55,495 nucleotides of DNA from an uncultured Bacillota bacterium (GCA_949295785.1 CASFMJ010000107.1:1-55495), one strand, 5' to 3'; counted from the first letter of the stretch, positions 17,325 to 46,916 are shown. Numbers and translations: made by a program. The notes: generated from the letters alone by a model not told the origin.

Positions 17325-20300
17325 TTGAAGAAAAGAATTAAAAAAATCGCAGCGCTGGCCATGGCAGTCTGCATGCTGTATGTATCAATCATGCCTGCAT
17401 GGGCAGAAATTAAAGGAATGAGATCCTTTCCTGTGACGGGTTATAAAGTATATCATAATATAATGGACTATGGAGAGGATGTGGGAGGACTCTCATTTTT
17501 CACCATTGACGGTAAAGCCGCATTCTGCATACAGTCAGGCAGGGCAGTAAGAGGCTCAGACGGACAGCTTTTTTATCCCGGACGCGAAAATGCCTTTGAT
17601 ATCCAATTTACAACAGAAATACTTACAGAGGATGATTCTGCTCAGAGCAGAATAGCATATCTGGGTTATTATTCACTTGCAGATCCTGATATGCGGGACT
17701 ATGCGTTTACGCAGATGATGATATGGCAGACTCTGCCTGCTCAGTCCATAACAGCAAACGGCATGACAGGAGGTAAATACAACTCGTATTTTGCCGACAA
17801 GACTGTAAATGATAATTATCTCATATGGAAGAAAAAAATTGAACAGAAGTTGAAAAGCTGGGATAAACAGCCTGATTTCGGAACCGGCCGCATTGGAGTA
17901 AAGGCAGGAGAGTCCACAGAGGTGACTGAACTTTCCGGCGCGCTTGCTGATTACGAAGACTTTTCTCTGAGTAAAGACGGCATAACGGTTAGCCACAAGA
18001 AAGGAAATAATAAACTTAAGGTGACTGCTTCTAAATACTGCACTGTAAAACACGTGTGCATGACCGAAAAGGAACTGACAGATGCAGGAGCTGTAAAGTA
18101 CCCGGCAAAAGAGAAAGTAAACTATGTGTACAAGTCAGACAAAAGTCAGGATATGGCCATATACGGTGCTGTCGGGAGTGTACCTGTGAGTCTTGAATTT
18201 GATGTTAAAACTGTACATGGAAAAATAGCTATAGAAAAGACCAAGGCCCCTGACGGATACAGTGACGAAAAACTGCCGGAGAGCGGAGCAGAATTTCAGA
18301 TTTATCCCACATCCGCCAAAAGCTATGATTATGCCCGGGAAGAATGCAGAGATATCCTTATAACTGATATACAGGGAAAAGCTGTGACAAAGGCTCTGCC
18401 GTATGGAACATATACCGTACATCAGATAAAAGGAGCAGAAGGCCATATAATGACAGATGATTTTAACGTGGAAATAACAGCAGATCAGCATGATAAAATA
18501 TATAAATACAATATAATGAACGAAACAATAAAATCGGATATAAGGATAGTAAAAAAAGACAGTGAAACAGGTAAAGTTATTCCACAGAAAGGTGTAAGCT
18601 ATGTGCTGACCAACAAAATCACAGGTGAAAAAATCCCGGGGCCAGAAAAAGACGGATGCTTTGCAACTGACGAAAACGGATATATAACACCGGATATAAA
18701 CCTGTGCTATGGAACATACATACTTACAGAAATAAAAGCGCCTGACGGATATGTTTTGGGAAAACCGGTGGAGTTTCAGGTAAACAGCGACAGGCAGACC
18801 GTAATCATAGAACAATTTGATATGGCTCAGAAAGGTGTAATAAAAATAGAAAAAACAGGGGAAATTTTTAAAAGCGTAAAAAAAGAAGGGGATAAATATA
18901 TACCGGTATTTGATGCTGCACCCATAGAGGGCGCAGAGTTTAAGATAGTGGCCGATGAAGATATAGTTACGGCAGACGGCACAGTGAGACTTAAAAAGGA
19001 TGAAGTTGCAGACATCATAATTACAGACGTTAATGGCAAGGCGACTTCAAAGAAGCTGTATCTGGGGAAATATAAGGTGACAGAGACAAAGACTGCATCA
19101 GGATTTGTGAAAGACAGCACTCCCAAGACAGCAGAACTTACTTATAAGGGACAGGAGGTACAGCTGACAGAAACACAACTTTCTGTAAAAAATCAGAGAC
19201 AGAAGGCTCAGGTTACCATAAGCAAAATATTTGAAACCGATGGGTTATATGGGATGGATACCGGAGAATCGTATCTGACCGCCCGCTTCGGACTTTTTGC
19301 CGCAGAACAACTAACTGCTTTCGACGGAACGAGAATACCTGAAGACGGCCTGATAGAAACAGTATCTCCGTCAGTTACTGATAAAAAAGACATATATGAA
19401 GTTTCTTTTGAATCTGATGTGCCTCTGGGCAGCTATTATATCAGAGAACTTTCTGCCCCGGAAGGATATGTTAAAGATGAAAAATATTATCCTGTGATAT
19501 TTTCCCCTGACGATAACTGCCGGGTGATTGATGTAATCAGGGCAAACAGCAATATTCCGGTTATCAACAGACTTGTAAGAGGAGAAATATCCGGCATAAA
19601 AAAAGATGAAAAAGGAGAAGCAGTAGCCGGAGCCGTAATAGGAATTTTCAGAGAAGCTGATGTGGAAGAGGGAAAACCGCTTGATGGGGACAAAGCCGTG
19701 CTTACAGCAGTTACAGAAAAAGACGGCTTTTTTTCTTTTGACAGAGTACCTTTTGGCAAGTATGTGATAGCCGAGATAAAACAGCCTGAGGGATTTCTTC
19801 TATCGCAAGAACTGATACCTGTAACAATAGACGAAGACGGCCTTGTCATAAACTTAGATATGGTAAATGAACATATCCCGACTCTCAACACTTATGCATA
19901 CTTTGAGGGTGGCAGCAGAAAACATCAGGCGGGAGGTGATGTAACTGTCATAGACAAAGTGAAATATACGAACCTTATGAAAAAACATCCGTATACAATA
20001 AAAGCAACCTTGATAGATAAGACTACCGGAAAGGCAGTAGCCATATCACAGAAATCCTTTATTCCGGAAGGTTCTGACGGGAAAATCACAATGGAGTTCA
20101 CCTTTAATACCGGCCAATATGCAGAAACAGGCGGACAGCTGGTGGTTTTTCAGGAACTGTATCGTGACGACAGGACAGGAGAGAAAAAGGTTGCCGGACA
20201 CGATAATATAAATGATAAGGATCAGACCGTATGCCTTACGGCATTCCAGCCGCCGAAGACATCTGATGATGCGGATTGGAAGCCGTATGCTTTCACGATG

Positions 20301-20366
20301 TCGACAACAGTGGCTGTCATGGCAGTGATAATATACATAAAAATACACCGTCAGAAAAAAATATAG
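17325..20366 (+). CDS. VaFE-repeat surface protein with thioester and Cna-B domains
   Basis: 1,013 residues with a TTG start supported by AAAGGAGG. A signal peptide (about 1-28, ending AWA) is followed by a thioester domain: FCIQSG near residue 67 and FTQMMIWQT near 129 match the Cys and Gln that form the internal thioester. Then come several Cna-B/SpaA-type beta domains (about 290-870), each with a lysine near its start and a Glu in TEIKAPDGY-type motifs, which makes intramolecular isopeptide bonds in this family. A C-terminal VaFE-type domain has LVVFQEL in place of VaFE. The tail PPKTSD, a hydrophobic stretch and KIHRQKKI look like a sortase signal of the (S/P)PxTG type. Likely an adhesin. 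Confidence 0.88.
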   Translation: MKKRIKKIAALAMAVCMLYVSIMPAWAEIKGMRSFPVTGYKVYHNIMDYGEDVGGLSFFTIDGKAAFCIQSGRAVRGSDGQLFYPGRENAFDIQFTTEILTEDDSAQSRIAYLGYYSLADPDMRDYAFTQMMIWQTLPAQSITANGMTGGKYNSYFADKTVNDNYLIWKKKIEQKLKSWDKQPDFGTGRIGVKAGESTEVTELSGALADYEDFSLSKDGITVSHKKGNNKLKVTASKYCTVKHVCMTEKELTDAGAVKYPAKEKVNYVYKSDKSQDMAIYGAVGSVPVSLEFDVKTVHGKIAIEKTKAPDGYSDEKLPESGAEFQIYPTSAKSYDYAREECRDILITDIQGKAVTKALPYGTYTVHQIKGAEGHIMTDDFNVEITADQHDKIYKYNIMNETIKSDIRIVKKDSETGKVIPQKGVSYVLTNKITGEKIPGPEKDGCFATDENGYITPDINLCYGTYILTEIKAPDGYVLGKPVEFQVNSDRQTVIIEQFDMAQKGVIKIEKTGEIFKSVKKEGDKYIPVFDAAPIEGAEFKIVADEDIVTADGTVRLKKDEVADIIITDVNGKATSKKLYLGKYKVTETKTASGFVKDSTPKTAELTYKGQEVQLTETQLSVKNQRQKAQVTISKIFETDGLYGMDTGESYLTARFGLFAAEQLTAFDGTRIPEDGLIETVSPSVTDKKDIYEVSFESDVPLGSYYIRELSAPEGYVKDEKYYPVIFSPDDNCRVIDVIRANSNIPVINRLVRGEISGIKKDEKGEAVAGAVIGIFREADVEEGKPLDGDKAVLTAVTEKDGFFSFDRVPFGKYVIAEIKQPEGFLLSQELIPVTIDEDGLVINLDMVNEHIPTLNTYAYFEGGSRKHQAGGDVTVIDKVKYTNLMKKHPYTIKATLIDKTTGKAVAISQKSFIPEGSDGKITMEFTFNTGQYAETGGQLVVFQELYRDDRTGEKKVAGHDNINDKDQTVCLTAFQPPKTSDDADWKPYAFTMSTTVAVMAVIIYIKIHRQKKI

Positions 20367-22659: not shown

Positions 22660-22687
22660 TCATATTCCGGGCTGTTTCACATATATT
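22660..22687 (+). promoter_or_regulatory. Candidate sigma-E promoter of the split carboxypeptidase
   Basis: TCATATT at 22660-22666, 13-bp gap, CATATATT at 22680-22687. Against the mother-cell sigma-E consensus (KMATATW - N13-15 - CATACAHT) the match is 7 of 7 and 7 of 8. The start would lie some 30 bp before ATG 22725. Confidence 0.55.
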
Positions 22688-22724: not shown

Positions 22725-23324
22725 ATGAAGTCTGAAAGAAAAAGAAAACATGGAGAAAACAGTGATAAGAGATCCGGGAAGATGGCCATTGATATGGGAA
22801 AAGAAACTGAAAAGATAAGTCATGGCGCCAGGAAAAAGATATTGGTAACAGCAGTGGGCTGTGCTCTTATTCTGGGTGTGTTTGCAGGAATAGACAGAAA
22901 TCTGGTGAAGCAGGAAACCATAGAACTGGAGACAGTGAGTGATGAGGTGCCGGCAGAAGAAAATAATGCACCCTTTGAAGTTGCAGCCAAAGGCGCAGTT
23001 TTAATAGATGCAGATACAGGTAAAGTGCTTTTCAGCCAGAATCATCATGAGGAACTGCCATTGGCGTCAGTCACTAAAGTAATGACCATGCTTATTGTGA
23101 TGGAATCAGTAGATTCAGGAAAGATAAGCCTTGACGATGAGGTAACTATTTCTGAAAGAGCGGCATCCATGGGAGGCAGTCAGATGTATATGGAGGCCGG
23201 AGAAACACATACGGTCAGCGAATTGCTTAAAGGAGTAGCTATGGCCAGTGCTAATGATGGATGTGTTGCATTTAATCAGGGAGAACTTTTGGGAGAAAAA
23301 ATAAGTGCGATAGACATTATTTAA
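22725..23324 (+). CDS. D-Ala-D-Ala carboxypeptidase, N-terminal part (interrupted)
   Basis: Residues 1-179 of a low-molecular-weight PBP (peptidase family S11) that trims pentapeptides of peptidoglycan. One membrane anchor lies at about residues 38-58. The active-site serine is in SVTK (115-118), and SAN (175-177) is the second motif. At 23261-23263 the frame leaves the gene and enters the inserted element, adding about 20 foreign codons to a stop at 23324. The KTG motif is 7.5 kb away at 31067, so this fragment alone should be inactive. The ATG at 22725 is favoured because the upstream ATG at 22701 has no ribosome binding site. Confidence 0.88.
   Translation: MKSERKRKHGENSDKRSGKMAIDMGKETEKISHGARKKILVTAVGCALILGVFAGIDRNLVKQETIELETVSDEVPAEENNAPFEVAAKGAVLIDADTGKVLFSQNHHEELPLASVTKVMTMLIVMESVDSGKISLDDEVTISERAASMGGSQMYMEAGETHTVSELLKGVAMASANDGCVAFNQGELLGEKISAIDII
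23249..23293 (+). repeat. attL of the inserted element
   Basis: TGCTAATG (23249-23256) is the left attB arm; the 12-bp core ATGTGTTGCATT follows at 23261-23272; then the left element arm GCATTTAATCAGGGAG (23268-23283) and CTTTTGGGAG. The latter two are inverted copies of the right end. Confidence 0.8.
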
Positions 23325-23482
23325 GATGATTTATTAAAAAATCAGATGAATGGGGTAAGGAAATCCGACGTGGATAATGAAACCAGCTGGCGCAAAATAA
23401 ATTTTACTGCAGAACCATTGAAGCTGATTGTGCAGTGACCTTTTGCGGATAAATAAAGAAGGGTGAAAATATTTCGTATAGG

Positions 23483-23514
23483 AAGAAGTAGGTTAAATGG
23501 CCTGCTTCTTTTTT
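23483..23514 (+). terminator. Terminator inside the element
   Basis: AGAAGTAGG / CCTGCTTCT stem with a T-run. It would stop transcription that enters from the interrupted gene. The rest of 23325-23866 shows no gene I can support. Confidence 0.65.
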
Positions 23515-23866
23515 GCAGGTTACAAAAGTCTCAGACTCGACCGGCCTGAAAACAGATTATAGATATAAATACCTGAAAAATAAGGCTTATTACTTATAAT
23601 ACACCTTTACGAATACGGGGATATGGGAAAGATAGTATATACCCAGAGATTTGCCAGAGTAATAAATCCAGGGTCGGAGAGGAATTTATTCCGGTAATTA
23701 ATTAAAATGTAAAAAAATGTCCCCTAAAGGCTGATTAATATTGTTATATATAATATAAATAGCATTACTTGATTTTAAATCAGAATTGACTGAATAATTT
23801 GAAAACTGACGAGCTGAGTTATGATTGATACATGGATCACATGATTAAAGTAAGGGGGGAGTCTCA

Positions 23867-25297
23867 TTGAACAAATACTTATCTCTAATTTTCTTATATA
23901 ACAGAGCAAGTTATAAGAAAATTTTGATTGCAGCAGGCATAATTCCGCTATCTTTCTCAGCAATATTCTTCCTGAAAATCGGGAATCCAAACAAGGCAGG
24001 AGCATATATGCTGATGGAACGGGCTTTCGGAGGCGTGGGGCCTGTTTTACTGTTTGCTGCTGCAATTCTGATGGCACTGGCAGCGGTTGTAACTGCACTG
24101 AATGGCCGAAAAGTCGTAAAGGGAACAACATCAACTACCGGATACACATTCAGAACTTTGCGAATATCACCTATTCAGTCTTACTCTACAGTTTTAATCT
24201 ACTATATTTTGATAATTCTGATATTTTGGGCACTTGCAGTGGCTTCTCTGGTTATCCTTGGAGGAATAGGACTGACCGTGGCAGGCACATCGAATCTGAA
24301 GGTACAGTTGGCTTTGGGTTTGCTGCGGACGGATCTTGGAGCGGCATTGATACCAATCGCAAATGGAACCCGTATGGCATTTAATATTGTGGCAGTCTTA
24401 GCTCTGGCAAATGATTGTGCAAAGTCATGTTATTTAGGATGGCATAACGGCAGACCCTCATTTGGTGTAATATTGGTGGCGATTCCTGCTATTCTTGTAT
24501 GGGCAGGCGCTTTGTCAGATACTTATATATTTGTAGTAATAATCATTCTTTTGGTTTATGTTGCCATTTCATTTGGAGATGTGATTTTTAGAGAAAAACA
24601 TCCGAAAGGTGATCCTTTTAAAACGAACCAATATTCAGGAGTGATGGATATGGACGGGTTTGAATTTGATGAAAGCACTTATGTCCCTATATCCAACACA
24701 TTAGTTGAGGATTATGATTTAGATGAACTAAGAGCGTCTCTTAACAGGCAATCCACCGGACAAAGAGAGCATGTAAAGGAAAAATGGACTAAAAAACTGA
24801 ATTTGACAAGACTGAGAAAAAAGTTTCTGCCGGTAGGAATCAATATGGAACGAGCCAACAATCTGTTTGGAGCATGTCTCTGTTTAGGAATCGGGGAACA
24901 TTTTGTATTCCTGTTCAAATATGTTCTGGAATTCTATCGTGTCAATGAAAATATCAAAGGAGTCACCATTGCTTCCGGTGTTAAAATGCCTTACTTCTGG
25001 GAACTGCAGCAGCATAGTTATTACGGATATGTACTTGCTGTTTTGCTGGTGATTTTTATACAGGCGTATTGGAATTATGAGTACTACAACAAAAAAACAA
25101 AGAGTGTGTATGTGATGAAAATGCTGCCGGACGGTAAAGAGTACAGAAGAACCATTTGGGCAATCCCTGTAATAGAAGCTGTTTTCATTGTTGCAGTTAT
25201 GATTGTGCATGTCATATTTGATGTATGTGTGTATGTGTTCATGACTCCGGAACTTGCACTGTATCCGGATTATCTGCAGCATATTTTACCTTTTTAA
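23867..25297 (+). CDS. ABC-type permease in the element
   Basis: 476 residues, TTG start after AAGGGGGGAG. About six hydrophobic segments in the first 230 residues, a long cytosolic-looking charged region (about 235-325), then further membrane spans at the C-terminal end (about 345-475). It resembles ABC-2 type permeases only in general layout. It is followed at 18 bp by the ATPase gene, its likely partner. Cargo unknown; peptides or antibiotics are common for this type. Confidence 0.75.
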   Translation: MNKYLSLIFLYNRASYKKILIAAGIIPLSFSAIFFLKIGNPNKAGAYMLMERAFGGVGPVLLFAAAILMALAAVVTALNGRKVVKGTTSTTGYTFRTLRISPIQSYSTVLIYYILIILIFWALAVASLVILGGIGLTVAGTSNLKVQLALGLLRTDLGAALIPIANGTRMAFNIVAVLALANDCAKSCYLGWHNGRPSFGVILVAIPAILVWAGALSDTYIFVVIIILLVYVAISFGDVIFREKHPKGDPFKTNQYSGVMDMDGFEFDESTYVPISNTLVEDYDLDELRASLNRQSTGQREHVKEKWTKKLNLTRLRKKFLPVGINMERANNLFGACLCLGIGEHFVFLFKYVLEFYRVNENIKGVTIASGVKMPYFWELQQHSYYGYVLAVLLVIFIQAYWNYEYYNKKTKSVYVMKMLPDGKEYRRTIWAIPVIEAVFIVAVMIVHVIFDVCVYVFMTPELALYPDYLQHILPF

Positions 25298-25314
25298 CCA
25301 GCAGGAGGACTAAC

Positions 25315-26037
25315 ATGATTGAGATTAAAAATGTATCTAAAACATATAAAGATAAGATTGCACTTTCTGATTGCAGCCTTCAGATTCCAAAAGGACAGAT
25401 AATCGGACTTTTTGGGGCAAACGGAGCAGGAAAGACAACATTCATGAAATGTGTTTTGGGATTTCTTACCTTTGATGGGGAGATTACCTTAGACGGAGAA
25501 AAAATAGGCAGGCACAATATTGACAAACTGGCTTTTGCCACAGGAGACCATTCTTTCTTCCCTTCTCTTACAGCAGATGATCATAAGATTTTTTATATGA
25601 TGCACTTCCCTAAATTTAACGAAAGACGGTACGATGCACTGATGGAATTCTTTGAGCTGCCAACCGGTAAGAAAATCAGTGAATTCAGTCTGGGTATGCA
25701 GAACCAGTTTGAAGTAGTTCTGGCAATCAGCCGTGGTGCAGAATATGTGTTTATGGACGAACCCTTTGCGGGAAATGATGTCTTTAACAGAGAGGATTTT
25801 TATAAGGTGCTGGTCAGCGTTCTGAACCAGGATGAGACTGTTATTATTTCTACTCATTTGATTGAGGAGATTGCCGACTATATTACCAGAGCTGTTCTTA
25901 TTCGAAAGAGCAAGATTATCGACGATCTGAGCGTAGCAGAAATTGAAGCTTCCGGCAAATCTCTGATTGAAATTGTAAGAGAACGATACGATTATAGGTC
26001 AGACCGCATTAAAAAAGCGGTAGACCAGATGAAATAA
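25315..26037 (+). CDS. ABC transporter ATP-binding protein in the element
   Basis: 240 residues. Walker A GANGAGKTT (about 37-45), Q-loop region TGDHSFFPSL, signature region EFSLGMQNQ in place of LSGGQ, Walker B YVFMDEPF and H-loop STHL. The weak signature is frequent in ABC-2 exporters (e.g. bacitracin-type and YtrB-like). AGGAGG precedes ATG 25315. Forms one unit with the permease and the membrane-anchored protein. Confidence 0.87.
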   Translation: MIEIKNVSKTYKDKIALSDCSLQIPKGQIIGLFGANGAGKTTFMKCVLGFLTFDGEITLDGEKIGRHNIDKLAFATGDHSFFPSLTADDHKIFYMMHFPKFNERRYDALMEFFELPTGKKISEFSLGMQNQFEVVLAISRGAEYVFMDEPFAGNDVFNREDFYKVLVSVLNQDETVIISTHLIEEIADYITRAVLIRKSKIIDDLSVAEIEASGKSLIEIVRERYDYRSDRIKKAVDQMK

Positions 26038-26077
26038 TGCTGAGAAAATGGTTGATGGAAAAGGAGATGGAGCCGTT

Positions 26078-27904
26078 ATGAAAAAATCTGTTATGATATT
26101 TTTAACCGTGGCAGTTTTCTCGGCTGTGGTAACTGTATGCTGCTGGAGTTTTGTAAACAGTCAGGTTGGCGAGGCGATTCTGTCAGAAGAAACCATAGAG
26201 GGAAGCAGAACGGAAGCGGATTGGTTAACAGTAGAATTCAGAGCTGACTCTGCAGATAACCTGCACTGGAAGAACTCTTTTGATTACAGTACCAATCAGA
26301 CCACGTCTGTTTTCAAAAGGGGAGAAATGGAGAAAAAGACGGATACCGTTGTTTATGATAATATTCGTTTCAACGGGTGGTCAGAAGTGCCATATACAAC
26401 AAAGATTAAGTACGAAGCACTGGAAGGACTTCAGGAACAAAAAATACAAGAGTATTATGAAGCCATAGAGCAAAAGGTTGTAAATAGCGGAGTACCAGAG
26501 CAAGGAGAAATCCACTTAAAGGATTATCTGGATTATTATCCCATCAGTTTTCAATTCCAGTTCGGAAACAAGGGATATGATTCGGAAAGTGCCTTGAACG
26601 CTCTGGATTATTATGAAGAAAATGAAGAACTTTCGCCGGATGGGGAAACCGTTTATGATACTGAGATTACTTTGTATACCGAATTAAACCGAAGGTTTAA
26701 AATACCGGTTATAGATAATGAATATCAAAAATACGAAGTATCTAAAATAGAAAATTATGATGGTCCAAAGTCTCTGGCATATAACGTTAATATCGAAAAA
26801 CCTTTGGCTTCCGGGAAAGACTACTACCAGTTTGACCCCGTCATCGTACTGCAAGAGGAGAATACGATTGATGGAATTCAGTGGACGCACCCGGATATTT
26901 CAGATAGTTCATCCCAGGAGACCAAATCTGCCGATACGAAAAACAGAATGCTTTTCATCGTAAATAACAGAACTGCCGGAGGAGAGATCGTAGATGTTTC
27001 AAATATACAAGACGGCTACGGAATTTATGAGCTTCCTCTGGGATTGAGTAGGAGCAACAGCGCAAGAAAAGGCGGTTTCGGCCAGGCAGCGTCTTATAGC
27101 AGACCTTTGGTAAATGAATTAAAAAATGTGTATCCCCTGGACGAAGAAGCAGAGTACATAGAAATGAGTTTATCTGAAGATCACCGATATTTGGCTGTTT
27201 TTTCTGTGAAGGATGGTGCGTATTTCGTGGACGTAGTGGATGCGGACTATTGGTCCTCAAATGGCCCGGAGAAAGTCTTTCCGGCATCGGAGACGATGTC
27301 TTATGCGTGGGGTGAAGACGGAAGTATTGTCATGACCAATCATCAGGGCTATGTGGCAGTGATTTCAAAAGCAGACGCCAATAAAGATTCCTACGGAGTT
27401 CTTTTTAGCAGAAATGTAGGTGATGACTTTGTTCAGGAATTTTTTGACGGAGAAATGACGGAAAAAGTTAATTCAACTTCCAGGTATCAATGTGGCATTG
27501 AACAGGGCCTTTCTGTTGCAGAAAACGATGGAAAAGCAGCTCTGGTACAAAATATGCTAGTAGGCGATTATAAATACCACATCAGAAATGCAGCTCTTAC
27601 CTGCGCAGTAATCAGCGAAGATGGAATTCTGTACAGAGGAAATATAAAAAGCAATTTGGTAGATTTAGATTATGATATGACCAAAGAAGAAATAGAGGAA
27701 GTGAAAGAATTTTTAGATGATGCTGCGGAAAGAGAATCCAATTCTGCTGCTACGAAAAGCATGTCGGGGTCAGCTTTTTCCAGACGTATACTTCAGCCTG
27801 CGAAAAATTTTTTGAATGCTGCTGCAAAAGGCGAACTGGGAACTCATTTTGCCGAATATATGATTCAACCGGACAGCAATGAGAATCACGTGCGGTGTAA
27901 CTAA
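26078..27904 (+). CDS. Membrane-anchored extracytoplasmic protein of the ABC unit
   Basis: 608 residues with one N-terminal hydrophobic segment (about 5-25) and a long polar domain. The region about 300-540 has repeated aromatic-glycine beta strands (e.g. RYLAVFSVKDGAYFVDVVDA, SYAWGEDGSIVMTNHQGYVAVI) like a beta-propeller. Not recognised by family. Spacing of 40 bp to the ATPase suggests it works with that transporter, perhaps as a sensor or a substrate-binding part. Confidence 0.65.
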   Translation: MKKSVMIFLTVAVFSAVVTVCCWSFVNSQVGEAILSEETIEGSRTEADWLTVEFRADSADNLHWKNSFDYSTNQTTSVFKRGEMEKKTDTVVYDNIRFNGWSEVPYTTKIKYEALEGLQEQKIQEYYEAIEQKVVNSGVPEQGEIHLKDYLDYYPISFQFQFGNKGYDSESALNALDYYEENEELSPDGETVYDTEITLYTELNRRFKIPVIDNEYQKYEVSKIENYDGPKSLAYNVNIEKPLASGKDYYQFDPVIVLQEENTIDGIQWTHPDISDSSSQETKSADTKNRMLFIVNNRTAGGEIVDVSNIQDGYGIYELPLGLSRSNSARKGGFGQAASYSRPLVNELKNVYPLDEEAEYIEMSLSEDHRYLAVFSVKDGAYFVDVVDADYWSSNGPEKVFPASETMSYAWGEDGSIVMTNHQGYVAVISKADANKDSYGVLFSRNVGDDFVQEFFDGEMTEKVNSTSRYQCGIEQGLSVAENDGKAALVQNMLVGDYKYHIRNAALTCAVISEDGILYRGNIKSNLVDLDYDMTKEEIEEVKEFLDDAAERESNSAATKSMSGSAFSRRILQPAKNFLNAAAKGELGTHFAEYMIQPDSNENHVRCN

Positions 27905-28079
27905 AACCTGTCTAAAAACCGGGAGAACATGCAGACACTAAAAACGATAAAGTATATAGTTACTCCTTTCAGAAAATGAAACTCCTGTGCTGAATTTAAA
28001 GTGTGACGTGTCAGACAGCATTAAAAGAAAGGTAGATATCTTATTTATTTAATATATGCTGTAGTTATACTGAAAAATG

Positions 28080-28088
28080 TGTTATAAT
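28080..28088 (+). promoter_or_regulatory. Extended -10 promoter of the sigma-like gene
   Basis: TGTTATAAT, a full extended -10, lies 30 bp before the ATG at 28118. The -35 region is weak. It suggests independent expression of the sigma-like gene in vegetative cells. Confidence 0.5.
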
Positions 28089-28117
28089 CAAAAAAATACT
28101 TTTTTCGGGAGAATGTC

Positions 28118-28654
28118 ATGAGCGATTCAGTAAGAGAGAAAGCAATTGATCTCATTCAAAATAAGTATGGGAAAATGATGCATAAAATTGGTTATGAAAT
28201 TCTTCAGGACTGGCATTATGTTGAAGATGTAGAGCAAGAAGTACTATGTAAATTAATCATGCATCATCAAGAGAAAACAATGCTGCCACCCGCTGAATTA
28301 AAAAGCTACCTCCGTACAGCGGTTAAAAATACAGCCATAAATATGGGTATTAAAAATTATTATATTGCGAAGGCCGAAGAAAAGTATTTCTTAGATATAC
28401 CGTTATCGATGACATTTGTCGATGTAGAGGCCTTTCAAGATAAATATGGGTTCGGTTCAGAAATAACGGAATTATTAAATAACTTGAGTAACATAGATAG
28501 AAATATTCTTTGCCTGCAGTACGGAGAAGGCTATCAGATAAAAGAAATTGCAGAAGCATTAGGTGTTAATAGCGAATATGTAAAGAAAAGGGCGTATAGG
28601 GCAAAGATTAAATTGAAAAGCATCGTAGTCGAAAAAGAAGAAGTTGAGCTGTAA
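28118..28654 (+). CDS. Sigma-70 family factor (ECF-like) in the element
   Basis: 178 residues. A region-2-like N half (GYEILQDWHYVEDVEQEVLCKLI) and a region-4 helix-turn-helix C half (LSNIDRNILCLQYGEGYQIKEIAEALGVNSEYVKKRAYRAK) match the ECF/sigma-70 plan. No anti-sigma gene follows. It may direct transcription of the cargo or recombinase genes. A strong terminator follows. Confidence 0.85.
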   Translation: MSDSVREKAIDLIQNKYGKMMHKIGYEILQDWHYVEDVEQEVLCKLIMHHQEKTMLPPAELKSYLRTAVKNTAINMGIKNYYIAKAEEKYFLDIPLSMTFVDVEAFQDKYGFGSEITELLNNLSNIDRNILCLQYGEGYQIKEIAEALGVNSEYVKKRAYRAKIKLKSIVVEKEEVEL

Positions 28655-28688
28655 TATGACAGAAGAGATGGATTAAATAAGAATCCTT

Positions 28689-28757
28689 AAGAGTCCGGCA
28701 AAACGAAAGCTGCCCCTGAATTATCAGGGCTTTGTTTTACCGGACTCTTTTTTCTTT
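28689..28757 (+). terminator. Terminator after the sigma-like gene
   Basis: AAGAGTCCGG / CCGGACTCTT outer stem with long inner pairing (GCAAAAC / GTTTTAC type), then TTTTTT. Confidence 0.85.
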
Positions 28758-28932
28758 TTTTGTATTTGCCACTGATAGAAAACAGTGTCTTTCGTGTTGC
28801 CCTGAAAGAAGACCTATGAGATAAAAGAAACACCCGGTAAAGTCAAAGAAAATACCCGATTATTGCATGGCAAAATAAAAAAAGGGACATCTTAATACAA
28901 TTTAATCATAGATTATATGGGGTGATAAATAG

Positions 28933-29106
28933 ATGAATGAAAGAAAAAAGAATCTGAAGAACGAAAAAATATCCAATGGATATACCATCAGATGTAACTA
29001 TGGAAATGAATCCTTAGAGAATTGCATGATTAAAATTGTAAAAATGGTAGTGGCGCAAAGTTTAAAGCAGGGAGATAATCCGGTGACACATGGCAAATCA
29101 TTATAA
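28933..29106 (+). CDS. Small protein preceding the recombinase
   Basis: 57 codons read from ATG 28933 (GGTGAT just upstream), starting MNERKKNLKNEKIS and including ENCMIKIVKMVVAQ. It ends 23 bp before the recombinase start and probably is co-expressed. Short basic genes of this sort often precede serine recombinases in clostridial elements; a recombination directionality role is a guess. Confidence 0.55.
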   Translation: MNERKKNLKNEKISNGYTIRCNYGNESLENCMIKIVKMVVAQSLKQGDNPVTHGKSL

Positions 29107-29129
29107 ATATTGTCGGGAAAGGAGTGCCA

Positions 29130-30707
29130 ATGAAATTGAAGGCGGCAATATACTGCAGATTATCGAAGGAAGATCTTGACAAGGAATATGAAGAACAGGA
29201 GAGTCAATCTATAATCAATCAGACAATGATGCTTCTTGATTACGTTGAAAAAAACGGTTTTGAATTATATGACATATACAAGGATGACGACTATTCCGGA
29301 CTTTATGATGACAGACCTGGTTTTGAGAAACTGATTCACGATGCTGAGGCAAGAAAGTTTGATGTAGTGATTTCAAAAAGTCAGTCCAGATTTACCAGAA
29401 ATATTGAGCACCTGGAGAAATATCTGCATCACGATTTCCCTCTTTGGGGAATTCGATTCATCAGTCTGGTGGATAATGTGGACACAGCTGTTAAGGGAAA
29501 CAAAAAATCAAGACAGATCAATGCTTTAATCAACGAGTGGTATTGTGAGGATCTGTCAGAATCTATCAGGGCAAGTTTTAAGATAAAACAGCAGAAAGGC
29601 CAGTTTTTAGGTTCATCCGCCCCCTATGGCTATGTCAAATCTCCAAAGGATCATCATCTGCTGATTCCCGATCCATATGCGGCAGGCATTGTAAAACGGA
29701 TATTTTATATGTATTTGAGTGGAATCGGCAAGAATAAAATCGGCTGTATTCTTACTGAAGAAGGAGTTCTTATTCCTTCGGAATATAAGAGACGGGTGCT
29801 CCATGTGAATTATCATAATGCCAATGAGAAATATGGAGAAAACAGCCGCTGGTCCTTTCAGACTATAAATACTATTCTTAAAAATGAAGTGTACATTGGC
29901 CATCTGGTTCAAAACAAGTGTGTGAAACAATCATATAAAACAAAAGGCAAAAAAGCAGTGCCTGAAGAAAAATGGATCCGGGTTGAAAATACTCATGAAC
30001 CGATTATTGATGAACAGACTTTTCTAAGGGTGCAGAAAATGCTTGCAGAACGACACAGGGAGACTAATATTCAGATTTTGAATGAAGGACTGTTTGCCCG
30101 AAGATTGTTTTGCGGAGACTGCGGAAAGCCTATGACAACGTATTATACAAAGAGAAAAAAGAATGGTGAGAGGCATAAATGCTATATTTGCGGTGAATAT
30201 AAAAGGTTTGGAAACCTATACTGTACAAGTCATAATATCCGTGAAGATACACTGAAGGAAATAATTCTGAAAGACTTGCAGCAGCAGGCTGAGGTTATAT
30301 TGAGCATCGGAAGCAAAGGAAGAATAAGAGAGTTTAAGTGTATCAGCGACAGCGAAAACAGAGCATATAAGCTGAAGAAACTTAACGAGGAGCTGGAGAA
30401 AATAGAAAATTATAAGACTAAGGTGTTTGAAAATTTCGCCGATGGACTCTTAAACAAGTCTGAATATGTAAAGATGAAAGCAAGTTATGACAACATAGAA
30501 GCAAAGCTGCGGCAAAGTATTCATAAGTGCAAAGTGGAACAAGCTGAACCTGGGGAAAAAATCGATTTTGTTTCCTGGCTGGAGAATTTTTCGGACAACT
30601 TCAATGTAAAAGAACTAACGAGAGAAATGGTTTTGAACTTAATCGACAGCATCTACATATTTAAAGATGATACTGTGGAAGTCAACTATAAATTCAGTAT
30701 CGCTTAA
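29130..30707 (+). CDS. Large serine recombinase (site-specific integrase/excisionase)
   Basis: 525 residues. The resolvase domain holds the catalytic serine in YCRLSKED (residue 12), with Arg residues in SQSRFTRN. The recombinase domain (about 170-300) contains APYGYVKSP. A zinc ribbon follows (CGDCGKPM near 328, then CYICG and C). A coiled coil and C-terminal tail (about 400-525) complete the fold. ATG at 29130 follows GGAAAGGAG. The 47-bp gap to the right end of the element is what is expected for the enzyme that moves it. Confidence 0.93.
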   Translation: MKLKAAIYCRLSKEDLDKEYEEQESQSIINQTMMLLDYVEKNGFELYDIYKDDDYSGLYDDRPGFEKLIHDAEARKFDVVISKSQSRFTRNIEHLEKYLHHDFPLWGIRFISLVDNVDTAVKGNKKSRQINALINEWYCEDLSESIRASFKIKQQKGQFLGSSAPYGYVKSPKDHHLLIPDPYAAGIVKRIFYMYLSGIGKNKIGCILTEEGVLIPSEYKRRVLHVNYHNANEKYGENSRWSFQTINTILKNEVYIGHLVQNKCVKQSYKTKGKKAVPEEKWIRVENTHEPIIDEQTFLRVQKMLAERHRETNIQILNEGLFARRLFCGDCGKPMTTYYTKRKKNGERHKCYICGEYKRFGNLYCTSHNIREDTLKEIILKDLQQQAEVILSIGSKGRIREFKCISDSENRAYKLKKLNEELEKIENYKTKVFENFADGLLNKSEYVKMKASYDNIEAKLRQSIHKCKVEQAEPGEKIDFVSWLENFSDNFNVKELTREMVLNLIDSIYIFKDDTVEVNYKFSIA

Positions 30708-30720
30708 AAAACAGGTATAA

Positions 30721-30776
30721 ATACTCCCAAAAGCACTCCCTGATTAAATGCTGCATGTGTTGCATTGGCAGAATAT
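30721..30776 (+). repeat. attR of the inserted element
   Basis: CTCCCAAAAG, then CTCCCTGATTAAATGC (30736-30751), the inverted copy of the left end; then core ATGTGTTGCATT (30755-30766), followed by GGCA of the restored gene. CATTGGCA (30763-30770) is the right arm of attB. Confidence 0.8.
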
Positions 30777-31538
30777 ACCGCAGGCAGTGAAGAAATCTTT
30801 GTGGAAAAGATGAACAAAAGAGCAGAAGAACTGGGTATGACTGATACACATTTTTCCAACACCAATGGTCTTCCTGTGGCAGATCACTATTCAAGCGCAT
30901 ATGATATAGCAATAATGTCTATGGAACTGTACCGTTATGAAGAAACAAGAAAGTGGTTCACCACATGGCAGGAAAGTATCACAGTGGGCCTTCCGGGAAA
31001 AGAAAAGGAATTCGGACTGACCAATACCAATAAACTTATTAAACAGTATCAGGGGTGTAACGGTATAAAGACCGGATATACAGCTGATGCAGGATATTGT
31101 CTTTCTGCATCGGCCACAAGAGGCGATACACACCTTATAGCAGTGGCTCTGGGATGTGAGACTTCGGAAATACGTAATCAGGAGATAAGTAAGATGCTGG
31201 ATTACGGATTTGCCAATTATGAAACATGTATAATAGCCGAAAAAGGAGAAGCAATGGAAGAAATCGCAGTGGAACGAGGCAATCCGCAGAAGGTGGAACT
31301 GATAGCAGATCAGCGAATAACAGCGCTTGTTGAAAAAGGAAAAAGTGATAGCGTTACAACAAAAGTGTGTGTTGAAGACAAAGTGGAGATACCGTTTGTC
31401 AAGGGCGATGAACTGGGAGTGCTGGAAGTATATCAGGATGATAAGCTCATAGATCAGTATCCTCTTGTAGCTGCAGGAGATGTGAATAAGGCTTCATTCC
31501 GTCAGATGATATCCCGTTTTTTTAAGAAAATATTCTGA
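30757..31538 (+). pseudogene. D-Ala-D-Ala carboxypeptidase, C-terminal part (interrupted, restorable)
   Basis: The rest of the split carboxypeptidase: CVALAEYTAGSEEIF continues after SAND, FSNTNGLP follows, and the KTG motif (GIKTGYTADAGYC) completes the active site. A C-terminal PBP5-like beta domain and a basic amphipathic tail (MISRFFKKIF) anchor the protein at the membrane. It has no ribosome binding site or start of its own near the junction; the first TTG at 30765 is internal. No frameshift or stop has entered either part. Joined to 22725-23262, it makes 439 residues. Confidence 0.88.
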
Positions 31539-46277: not shown

Positions 46278-46916
46278 CTAACTGTCAATGTAGTCTTCGA
46301 GATAAGATCTGAGTTTATCCAGCGCCTTTTTCTCTATTCTTGACACATAACTGCGGCTTATTCCCAGTTCTTTTGCGATTTCACGCTGCGGCCTTGGTTC
46401 ATTGCCGTCAAGACCATATCTGGCGGTTATTACTGCCTTTTCACGCTGAGTAAGAGCTTTTCCTATTGCATCACGCAAATTGCCGACCTGTATTTTCAGA
46501 TCAATCGAGTCTACGATTTCATCTGTATCAGTACCGAGAATGTCATTAAAACTTATTTCGTTTCCGTCTTTATCTACGCCTATGGGCAGGCTGAGGGAAA
46601 TCTCCTGCCTGACGCGTTTTGATGCCCTTATACTCATCAGAATCTCATTTTCTATACATTTAGCCGCATAAGTGGCCAGCCTGGTGGCTTTTTTCCCTGA
46701 ATATGTATTTACAGCTTTTATCAGACCTATGGTGCCTATTGATATCATGTCATCCTGATTATTACCGGGTCCTACGTATTTTTTAGCGATGTGAGCCACA
46801 AGTCTGAGGTTCCGTTCTATAAGTACGGCTTTTGCTTCAGGATCGTTCTGCTCAAGCAGCTTAACGTAGTACTGTTCCTCTTTATCCGTAAGTGGATTTG
46901 GAAAAGAAGTACTCAT
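46278..46916 (-). CDS. sigK: Sigma-K-like sporulation sigma factor (no pro-sequence)
   Basis: 212 residues, closest by eye to Sig[83 protein letters not shown]. It begins at the residue where mature SigK begins, so no pro-sequence is present, as in some clostridia. The gene is continuous, with no intervening element. AGAGGGGG precedes the ATG. Confidence 0.82.
   Translation of the reverse strand: MSTSFPNPLTDKEEQYYVKLLEQNDPEAKAVLIERNLRLVAHIAKKYVGPGNNQDDMISIGTIGLIKAVNTYSGKKATRLATYAAKCIENEILMSIRASKRVRQEISLSLPIGVDKDGNEISFNDILGTDTDEIVDSIDLKIQVGNLRDAIGKALTQREKAVITARYGLDGNEPRPQREIAKELGISRSYVSRIEKKALDKLRSYLEDYIDS

Follow-up and report, generated by a model that had tools for sequence, protein, structure and literature searches.

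The stretch of DNA analysed here, referred to as the window, comprises 55,495 nucleotides from an uncultured Bacillota bacterium (GCA_949295785.1 CASFMJ010000107.1:1-55495) and contains a dacF-type D-Ala-D-Ala carboxypeptidase gene (dac) that is split by a 7,494-bp element encoding a large serine recombinase (LSR). The two parts of the gene and the boundaries of the element are arranged as follows, in positions of the window.

22725..23272 (+), 5' part of the carboxypeptidase gene, with the SVTK and SAN motifs and the core at its end
23261..23272 (+), attL core ATGTGTTGCATT, with the crossover TG within the Cys codon after SAND-G
23273..30754 (+), intervening element, 7,494 bp counting one core
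30755..30766 (+), attR core ATGTGTTGCATT, the second of exactly two copies in the window
30755..31538 (+), 3' part of the carboxypeptidase gene, with the KTG motif and a PBP5_C domain, and without a visible ribosome-binding site of its own

Joining the two parts within the core removes 7,494 bp and yields a single open frame of 439 residues with SVTK, SAND and KTG; left unjoined, the frame of the 5' part ends about 17 codons past the core, inside element sequence. The Pfam domain Peptidase_S11 is divided between the two parts, the N-terminal one covering positions 6-111 of 239 and the C-terminal one positions 111-238, followed by PBP5_C. The break falls on active-site codons, the core being located at SAND-G-Cys, and the predicted attB reads AATGATGG-ATGTGTTGCATT-GGCAGAA. 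As the ends of the element are inverted repeats, the reconstructed attP (CTCCCTGATTAAATGC-TGCATGTGTT-GCATTTAATCAGGGAG) is strongly dyadic around a central TG, as expected for a serine-integrase site. It has 27 paired positions, whereas 2,000 random 72-mers taken from the window averaged 13.3 and none exceeded 22. The initial annotation had proposed that a single carboxypeptidase gene, next to spoIIGA-sigE-sigG, is split in frame by a serine-recombinase element with a 12-bp core repeat. The core, the 439-residue join and the Pfam halves bear this out, and the repeat and the neighbouring genes are as it described them. Chance occurrence of the repeat was ruled out, since the agreement of core, kept frame, orthology of both parts and dyad goes far beyond chance. 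An assembly chimaera was likewise dismissed, the same split being present in independent assemblies, including a single-contig genome (G235, see below). At the level of sequence, the split, its cores, the preserved frame and the symmetric attP are clear.

Related genomes carry the gene in uninterrupted form, a comparison that the initial annotation had put forward as a check. All five sister genomes in the window's genus, as well as G033 from another genus, each possess one intact orthologue (68-76% identity), and the joined window DNA matches the intact orthologues of the genus right across the junction. In G001 and G033 the orthologue is located between spoIIGA-sigE-sigG and, directly upstream, deoB-type and pyrimidine-nucleoside-phosphorylase-type genes (named by eye), an upstream neighbourhood which we take to resemble that of B. 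subtilis dacF. The split gene combines the features by which dacF orthology is recognised, namely the S11 catalytic motifs, PBP5_C and dacF synteny. Among 61 genomes, 25 encode both the orthologue and SpoIIGA, one encodes the orthologue only, none SpoIIGA only and 35 neither (Fisher p 3e-16), the single dac-only genome being 86% complete; within the host family the corresponding counts are 15/0/0/22. Genomes lacking SpoIIGA mostly possess other S11 enzymes, so this link concerns the dac orthologue and not carboxypeptidases generally. The host genome itself encodes sigE, sigG, sigK, spoIIGA and spoIVA, and these spore genes, together with the co-occurrence with SpoIIGA, identify the split gene as a dacF-type sporulation gene.

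The initial annotation saw a single case, whereas genome searches reveal a recurrent system. The host family and order were searched with the joined protein, and partial matches beginning at residues ~173-180 were inspected closely. In the host family, eight of the 79 dac-bearing genomes, belonging to six genera, are split at residues ~176-183, and in each of them an LSR lies directly upstream of the 3' half. Both halves were located 5.3 kb apart in G461, 8 kb apart in G158, 19 kb apart in the single-contig genome G235 and 58 kb apart in G354; they are found on separate contigs in G268 and G496, and in G518 the 3' half and its LSR were seen. An alignment of five family LSRs was then used to scan 84,980 species genomes, giving 80 loci. 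Among LSRs of at least 44% identity, nearly every one lies within or close to a carboxypeptidase gene whose break is at SAN-D-[AG]-C. In the LSR tree a clade of 44 (support 100) includes 42 members situated by a dac half broken at that motif; the two exceptions are one truncated by a contig end and L126, which has a different gene following it. None of the more distant LSRs is in dac. As G158, G235 and G354 have LSRs that make up a lineage of their own, insertion at the same codons has arisen at least twice. The orientation of the element differs in part of the clade.

The same split is found in dozens of Lachnospiraceae-type genomes (a host label based on record titles), among them cultured strains. 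Among the carriers are the cultured Schaedlerella arabinosiphila, Petralouisia muris, Lachnospiraceae bacterium 3-1 and 3-2, Dorea sp. 5-2 and Roseburia hominis An869. An intact and distant second carboxypeptidase gene is present in many of the Lachnospiraceae-type carriers, lying a few kb downstream of the split one (L138, L134, L136, L139, L155, L160). The cargo is unrelated among elements, with ABC (ATP-binding cassette) transporters in the window and G461 and dehydrogenases and a lipoate ligase in G158. The 58-kb element of G354 (L073-L076), which also lies within the sporulation gene, harbours VirB4- and FtsK-like genes and is probably an integrative conjugative element (ICE).

Both parts of the gene are maintained. 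No stops or frameshifts were found before the break or in the 3' half of any split copy examined, and a tree of 82 carboxypeptidases places the host family's split genes at scattered points between intact ones, on branches of ordinary length. The elements of G235 and G354 share collinear segments from end to end, so that their common ancestor was probably split already. Between these two genomes the ratio of non-synonymous to synonymous substitution (dN/dS, limited to nearer pairs because it is saturated between more distant ones) is 0.064 for the 5' half, where the synonymous distance is near saturation, and 0.057 for the 3' half; intact pairs give 0.02-0.13. A permanently dead gene would not be expected to produce this pattern, which horizontal replacement could in principle mimic. 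On the intact halves and the dN/dS values a decayed or replaced gene was rejected, and the initial statement that neither part shows decay holds, with purifying selection in G235 and G354 added to it. That annotation had also named, as one outcome that would tell against it, a paralogue assuming the role of a decaying split copy. Paralogues are present, the host genome encoding two further S11 carboxypeptidases of types that differ from the split gene, and the split copies are not decaying.

Control of the gene and of the recombinase was approached through the sequences upstream of each, at the following features.

22660..22687 (+), sigma-E-type dac promoter, -35 TCATATTC, N11, -10 ACATATATT, 37 nt 5' of the ATG
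28887..28914 (+), sigma-E-like promoter of the operon of small open reading frame (ORF) and LSR, ACATCTTA-N11-TCATAGATT, 18 nt 5' of the ATG
28933..29106 (+), 57-residue ORF, candidate recombination directionality factor (RDF), with the conserved motif YGxxSLxxCMxxVIR
29124..30707 (+), LSR of 527 residues, complete, with Resolvase, Recombinase and Zn ribbon in order

Promoter scores are matches to the sigma-E consensus as given in an excerpt of PMC3416734, and the controls were window sequence and spoIVA loci, those of G003 and G004 being excluded because their starts are miscalled. The dac promoter scores 19.5 (p 0.002 against shuffles); 600 random 150-mers of the window all scored lower. The spoIVA promoter of the host genome (GCATAACT-N11-TCATATATT) has the same spacing and a nearly identical -10. 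The dac motif occupies the same place in G001, G004, G005 and G033, is weaker in G002 and lies farther upstream in G003; overall, the window's genus, G033 and G496 have a clear dac promoter of the sigma-E type. Upstream of the dac 5' half in the Lachnospiraceae-type carriers (L127-L161), a sequence GCATATTT-N12-xxTTACAxT recurs at about -32 to -37. The motif preceding the small ORF and LSR in the window has, taken alone, a p of about 0.035. Across same-orientation elements, a KCATA..WT -10 with an ATA-type -35 precedes this operon in 17 of 28, against 1.6 in shuffles (maximum 6). In six elements of opposite orientation (L129, L135, L141, L144, L153, L154) an inverted repeat TTGTATCATGTATAAT...TGTACATGATACGAG with TATAAT, perhaps an operator-promoter of their own, is positioned just 5' of the LSR.

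A small ORF 5' of the LSR is present in 42 of 44 elements, either of the YGxxSLxxCMxxVIR type or of a second type, the latter found in G158, G235 and G354; it had no match to known families in the searches made. According to part of PMC10747680, RDFs are small, mutually unrelated proteins encoded close to their recombinase, which makes this ORF the obvious candidate, and it may act as the excision factor.

The remainder of the element is made up of four cargo genes.

23867..25297 (+), membrane protein, ABC-permease-like from its position and hydrophobicity, without a family match
25312..26037 (+), ABC transporter ATPase, nearest to PmtA and lantibiotic-protection ATPases, far under their cut-offs
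26048..27904 (+), 618-residue protein of no known family, with a hydrophobic segment at the N-terminus
28118..28654 (+), sigma-70 factor of the extracytoplasmic function (ECF) type

A prophage was considered and rejected, as no phage genes were found in the window's element and neither the ABC ATPase nor the sigma factor is a phage structural gene; in a PHROGs scan of the LSR, small ORF, 618-residue protein and permease, the LSR was the sole match. Searches for plasmid relatives of the cargo, and for close relatives of the window's LSR in viral contigs, found none. The viral contigs do include three distant relatives of the LSR type of G158, G235 and G354, none of them within dac. The host genome encodes a second LSR, 38% identical (L002, G000:C95).

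Taken together, these observations make it probable that the window carries a skin-type element intervening in a dacF-type sporulation gene, which would be rejoined in the mother cell through a sigma-E-driven small ORF and LSR. In growing cells the carboxypeptidase gene would be silent and cut. On sporulation, mother-cell sigma-E would transcribe the dac 5' half as well as the small ORF-LSR operon, and the LSR, acting at the TG in the Cys codon that follows the SxN motif, would recombine attL and attR, freeing the 7.5-kb element as a circle and rejoining the gene. The restored enzyme would then trim peptide side chains of the cortex peptidoglycan, and the element would be retained in the spore while the mother cell dies. 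The anatomy of the locus, its recurrence at the same codons, its link to sporulation, its maintenance and its promoter-like sequences are features of the DNA itself; the predicted excision, with its timing and cell type, the putative role of the small protein and the presumed effect of the rejoined enzyme on the cortex are read from them. The skin-like reading of the initial annotation is strengthened by the SpoIIGA link, the recurrence, the purifying selection and the promoters of sigma-E type or likeness. The mother cell had been assumed there, and now rests on the sigma-E-type promoter, because the dacF genes of C. difficile and B. subtilis are forespore genes. A forespore-expressed gene cannot be rejoined without germ-line loss of the element, so that a sigma-E-type promoter in the window's genus is a meaningful agreement.

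Several observations weigh against developmental rejoining in the mother cell. The dacF gene of B. subtilis is expressed in the forespore under sigma-F. In G158, G235, G354 and the Lachnospiraceae-type hosts the dac promoter is of unclear type, and upstream of the orthologues from several other families of the order there are instead TGTATAA-type, sigma-G-like sequences, which are individually weak. The KCATA motif precedes the recombinase operon in only one of 14 oppositely oriented elements, and a circular attP was searched for in viral contigs and none was found. In G354 the VirB4- and FtsK-like genes mean that mobility, not development, could drive excision. In C. difficile, dacF is sigma-G dependent according to excerpts of PMC3738446 and PMC3789822, which agrees with the sigma-G-like sequences of those orthologues.

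The alternative that survives best, which we nonetheless regard as unlikely, is an ordinary mobile element of the integrative and mobilizable (IME) or ICE type, for which conserved active-site codons serve as attB and which excises rarely, for transfer, leaving the gene off in its carriers. Attachment sites commonly fall in conserved protein motifs, and the freely varying cargo (ABC transporter, dehydrogenases, a VirB4-type ICE) and the intact state of the majority of orthologues would suit such an element. However, the purifying selection on the two halves in descendants of a common split ancestor, the lack of stops and frameshifts in the split copies examined, the confinement of the target to a gene found almost only with SpoIIGA and the sigma-E-like promoters before the small ORF-LSR operon all argue against it.

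It is very improbable that the element undergoes reversible, non-developmental switching, with low-level excision and re-integration in all cells and some fraction always intact. A sporulation gene has no obvious gain from vegetative switching, excision by serine integrases requires a directionality factor, and the recombinase operon has a sigma-E-like promoter, despite the presence of related elements at the same site in both orientations and the precedent of yin in C. botulinum, which a portion of PMC10747680 describes as being excised at any time in a fraction of the population. Finally, a recent insertion that inactivated the gene in the window's lineage, too young for decay and covered by paralogues, is scarcely credible: one split genome only in the window's genus and two other S11 carboxypeptidases in the host would fit, yet there are eight family cases in six genera, maintenance in G235 and G354 is long-term and the paralogues belong to other types.

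Developmental rejoining by the mother cell might be extended to the wider set of elements. An LSR clade specialised on the SxN codons of dacF-type carboxypeptidases in Lachnospiraceae-type hosts and the window's family would, with a second lineage at the same codons, constitute a widespread, exchangeable cortex switch that bears arbitrary cargo, be it transporters, metabolic genes or entire conjugative elements. Such a switch would be tolerated since in these hosts mother-cell sigma-E reads the gene, in place of the forespore sigma factors that act on its orthologues. This generalisation is tentative, and we stop somewhat short of favouring it. The recurrence at the same spot in dozens of bacteria suggests a widespread, undescribed gene-rejoining switch operating at sporulation.

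Elsewhere in the window, sigK (46278-46916, -) is uninterrupted and without a skin element; the match of its product to the SigK model starts at ~24, and the protein seems to be without an inhibitory pro-sequence, as reported for C. difficile. At 17325-20366 (+) a large secreted protein of 1,013 residues with a TTG start and Cna-B-type-looking repeats (by eye) is encoded, which may be a surface adhesin or a pilin.

Developmental excision of an element has been described for a small number of spore genes, in most instances from few strains. The split genes named in excerpts of PMC4191935, PMC5595907, PMC6957869 and PMC10747680 are sigK, spoVFB, spoVR, spsM, gerE, yabG and kamA, with dac absent, and no dac-interrupting element was found in the full-text literature searched, which leaves out most subscription papers and preprints; to this extent the initial claim of a new case in a peptidoglycan gene stands. 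The present system is recurrent, with a peptidoglycan enzyme as its target, several cultured carriers and natural sister species with intact and split genes, which makes regulated genome rearrangement in commensal spore formers directly testable. The system also provides an LSR family whose attB is mapped and conserved and for which matching candidates for the directionality factor are available.

In common with skin in sigK of B. subtilis and Clostridioides difficile, a sporulation gene is cut by an LSR element with a short direct repeat and a kept frame, and sigma-E-type control of the recombinase operon is suggested. Unlike skin, the target is the active-site codons of a peptidoglycan carboxypeptidase and not a sigma factor, no phage genes were found in the 7.5-kb element, and its excision is a prediction. 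The gin element in gerE of Bacillus cereus ATCC10987 is, according to part of PMC5595907, similarly a non-prophage element that encodes a serine recombinase plus an additional factor (GirX), and has a 9-bp overlap; however, it is 28.6 kb long with three recombinases and reported from one strain, whereas the present elements link a single recombinase clade to a single target in many genera. Excerpts of the respective reports describe yin in yabG (Clostridium botulinum V73, PMC10747680), SP-beta in spsM (PMC4191935), vfbin in spoVFB and vrin in spoVR as also interrupting mother-cell genes, in each case a different target from the present one; these elements encode a recombinase, and for some of them a directionality factor is known or has been proposed. 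The enzyme itself resembles DacF of B. subtilis and C. difficile CD1291, a cortex carboxypeptidase, in being an S11 peptidase with PBP5_C and in the upstream genes of the sister species, but the dacF genes of those two species are uninterrupted and under sigma-F or sigma-G forespore control, whereas the present one is interrupted and has a sigma-E-type promoter. As far as the tools used here reach, the kind of element is known, and what is new is its target, its non-phage cargo and the clade-wide specialisation of its recombinase.

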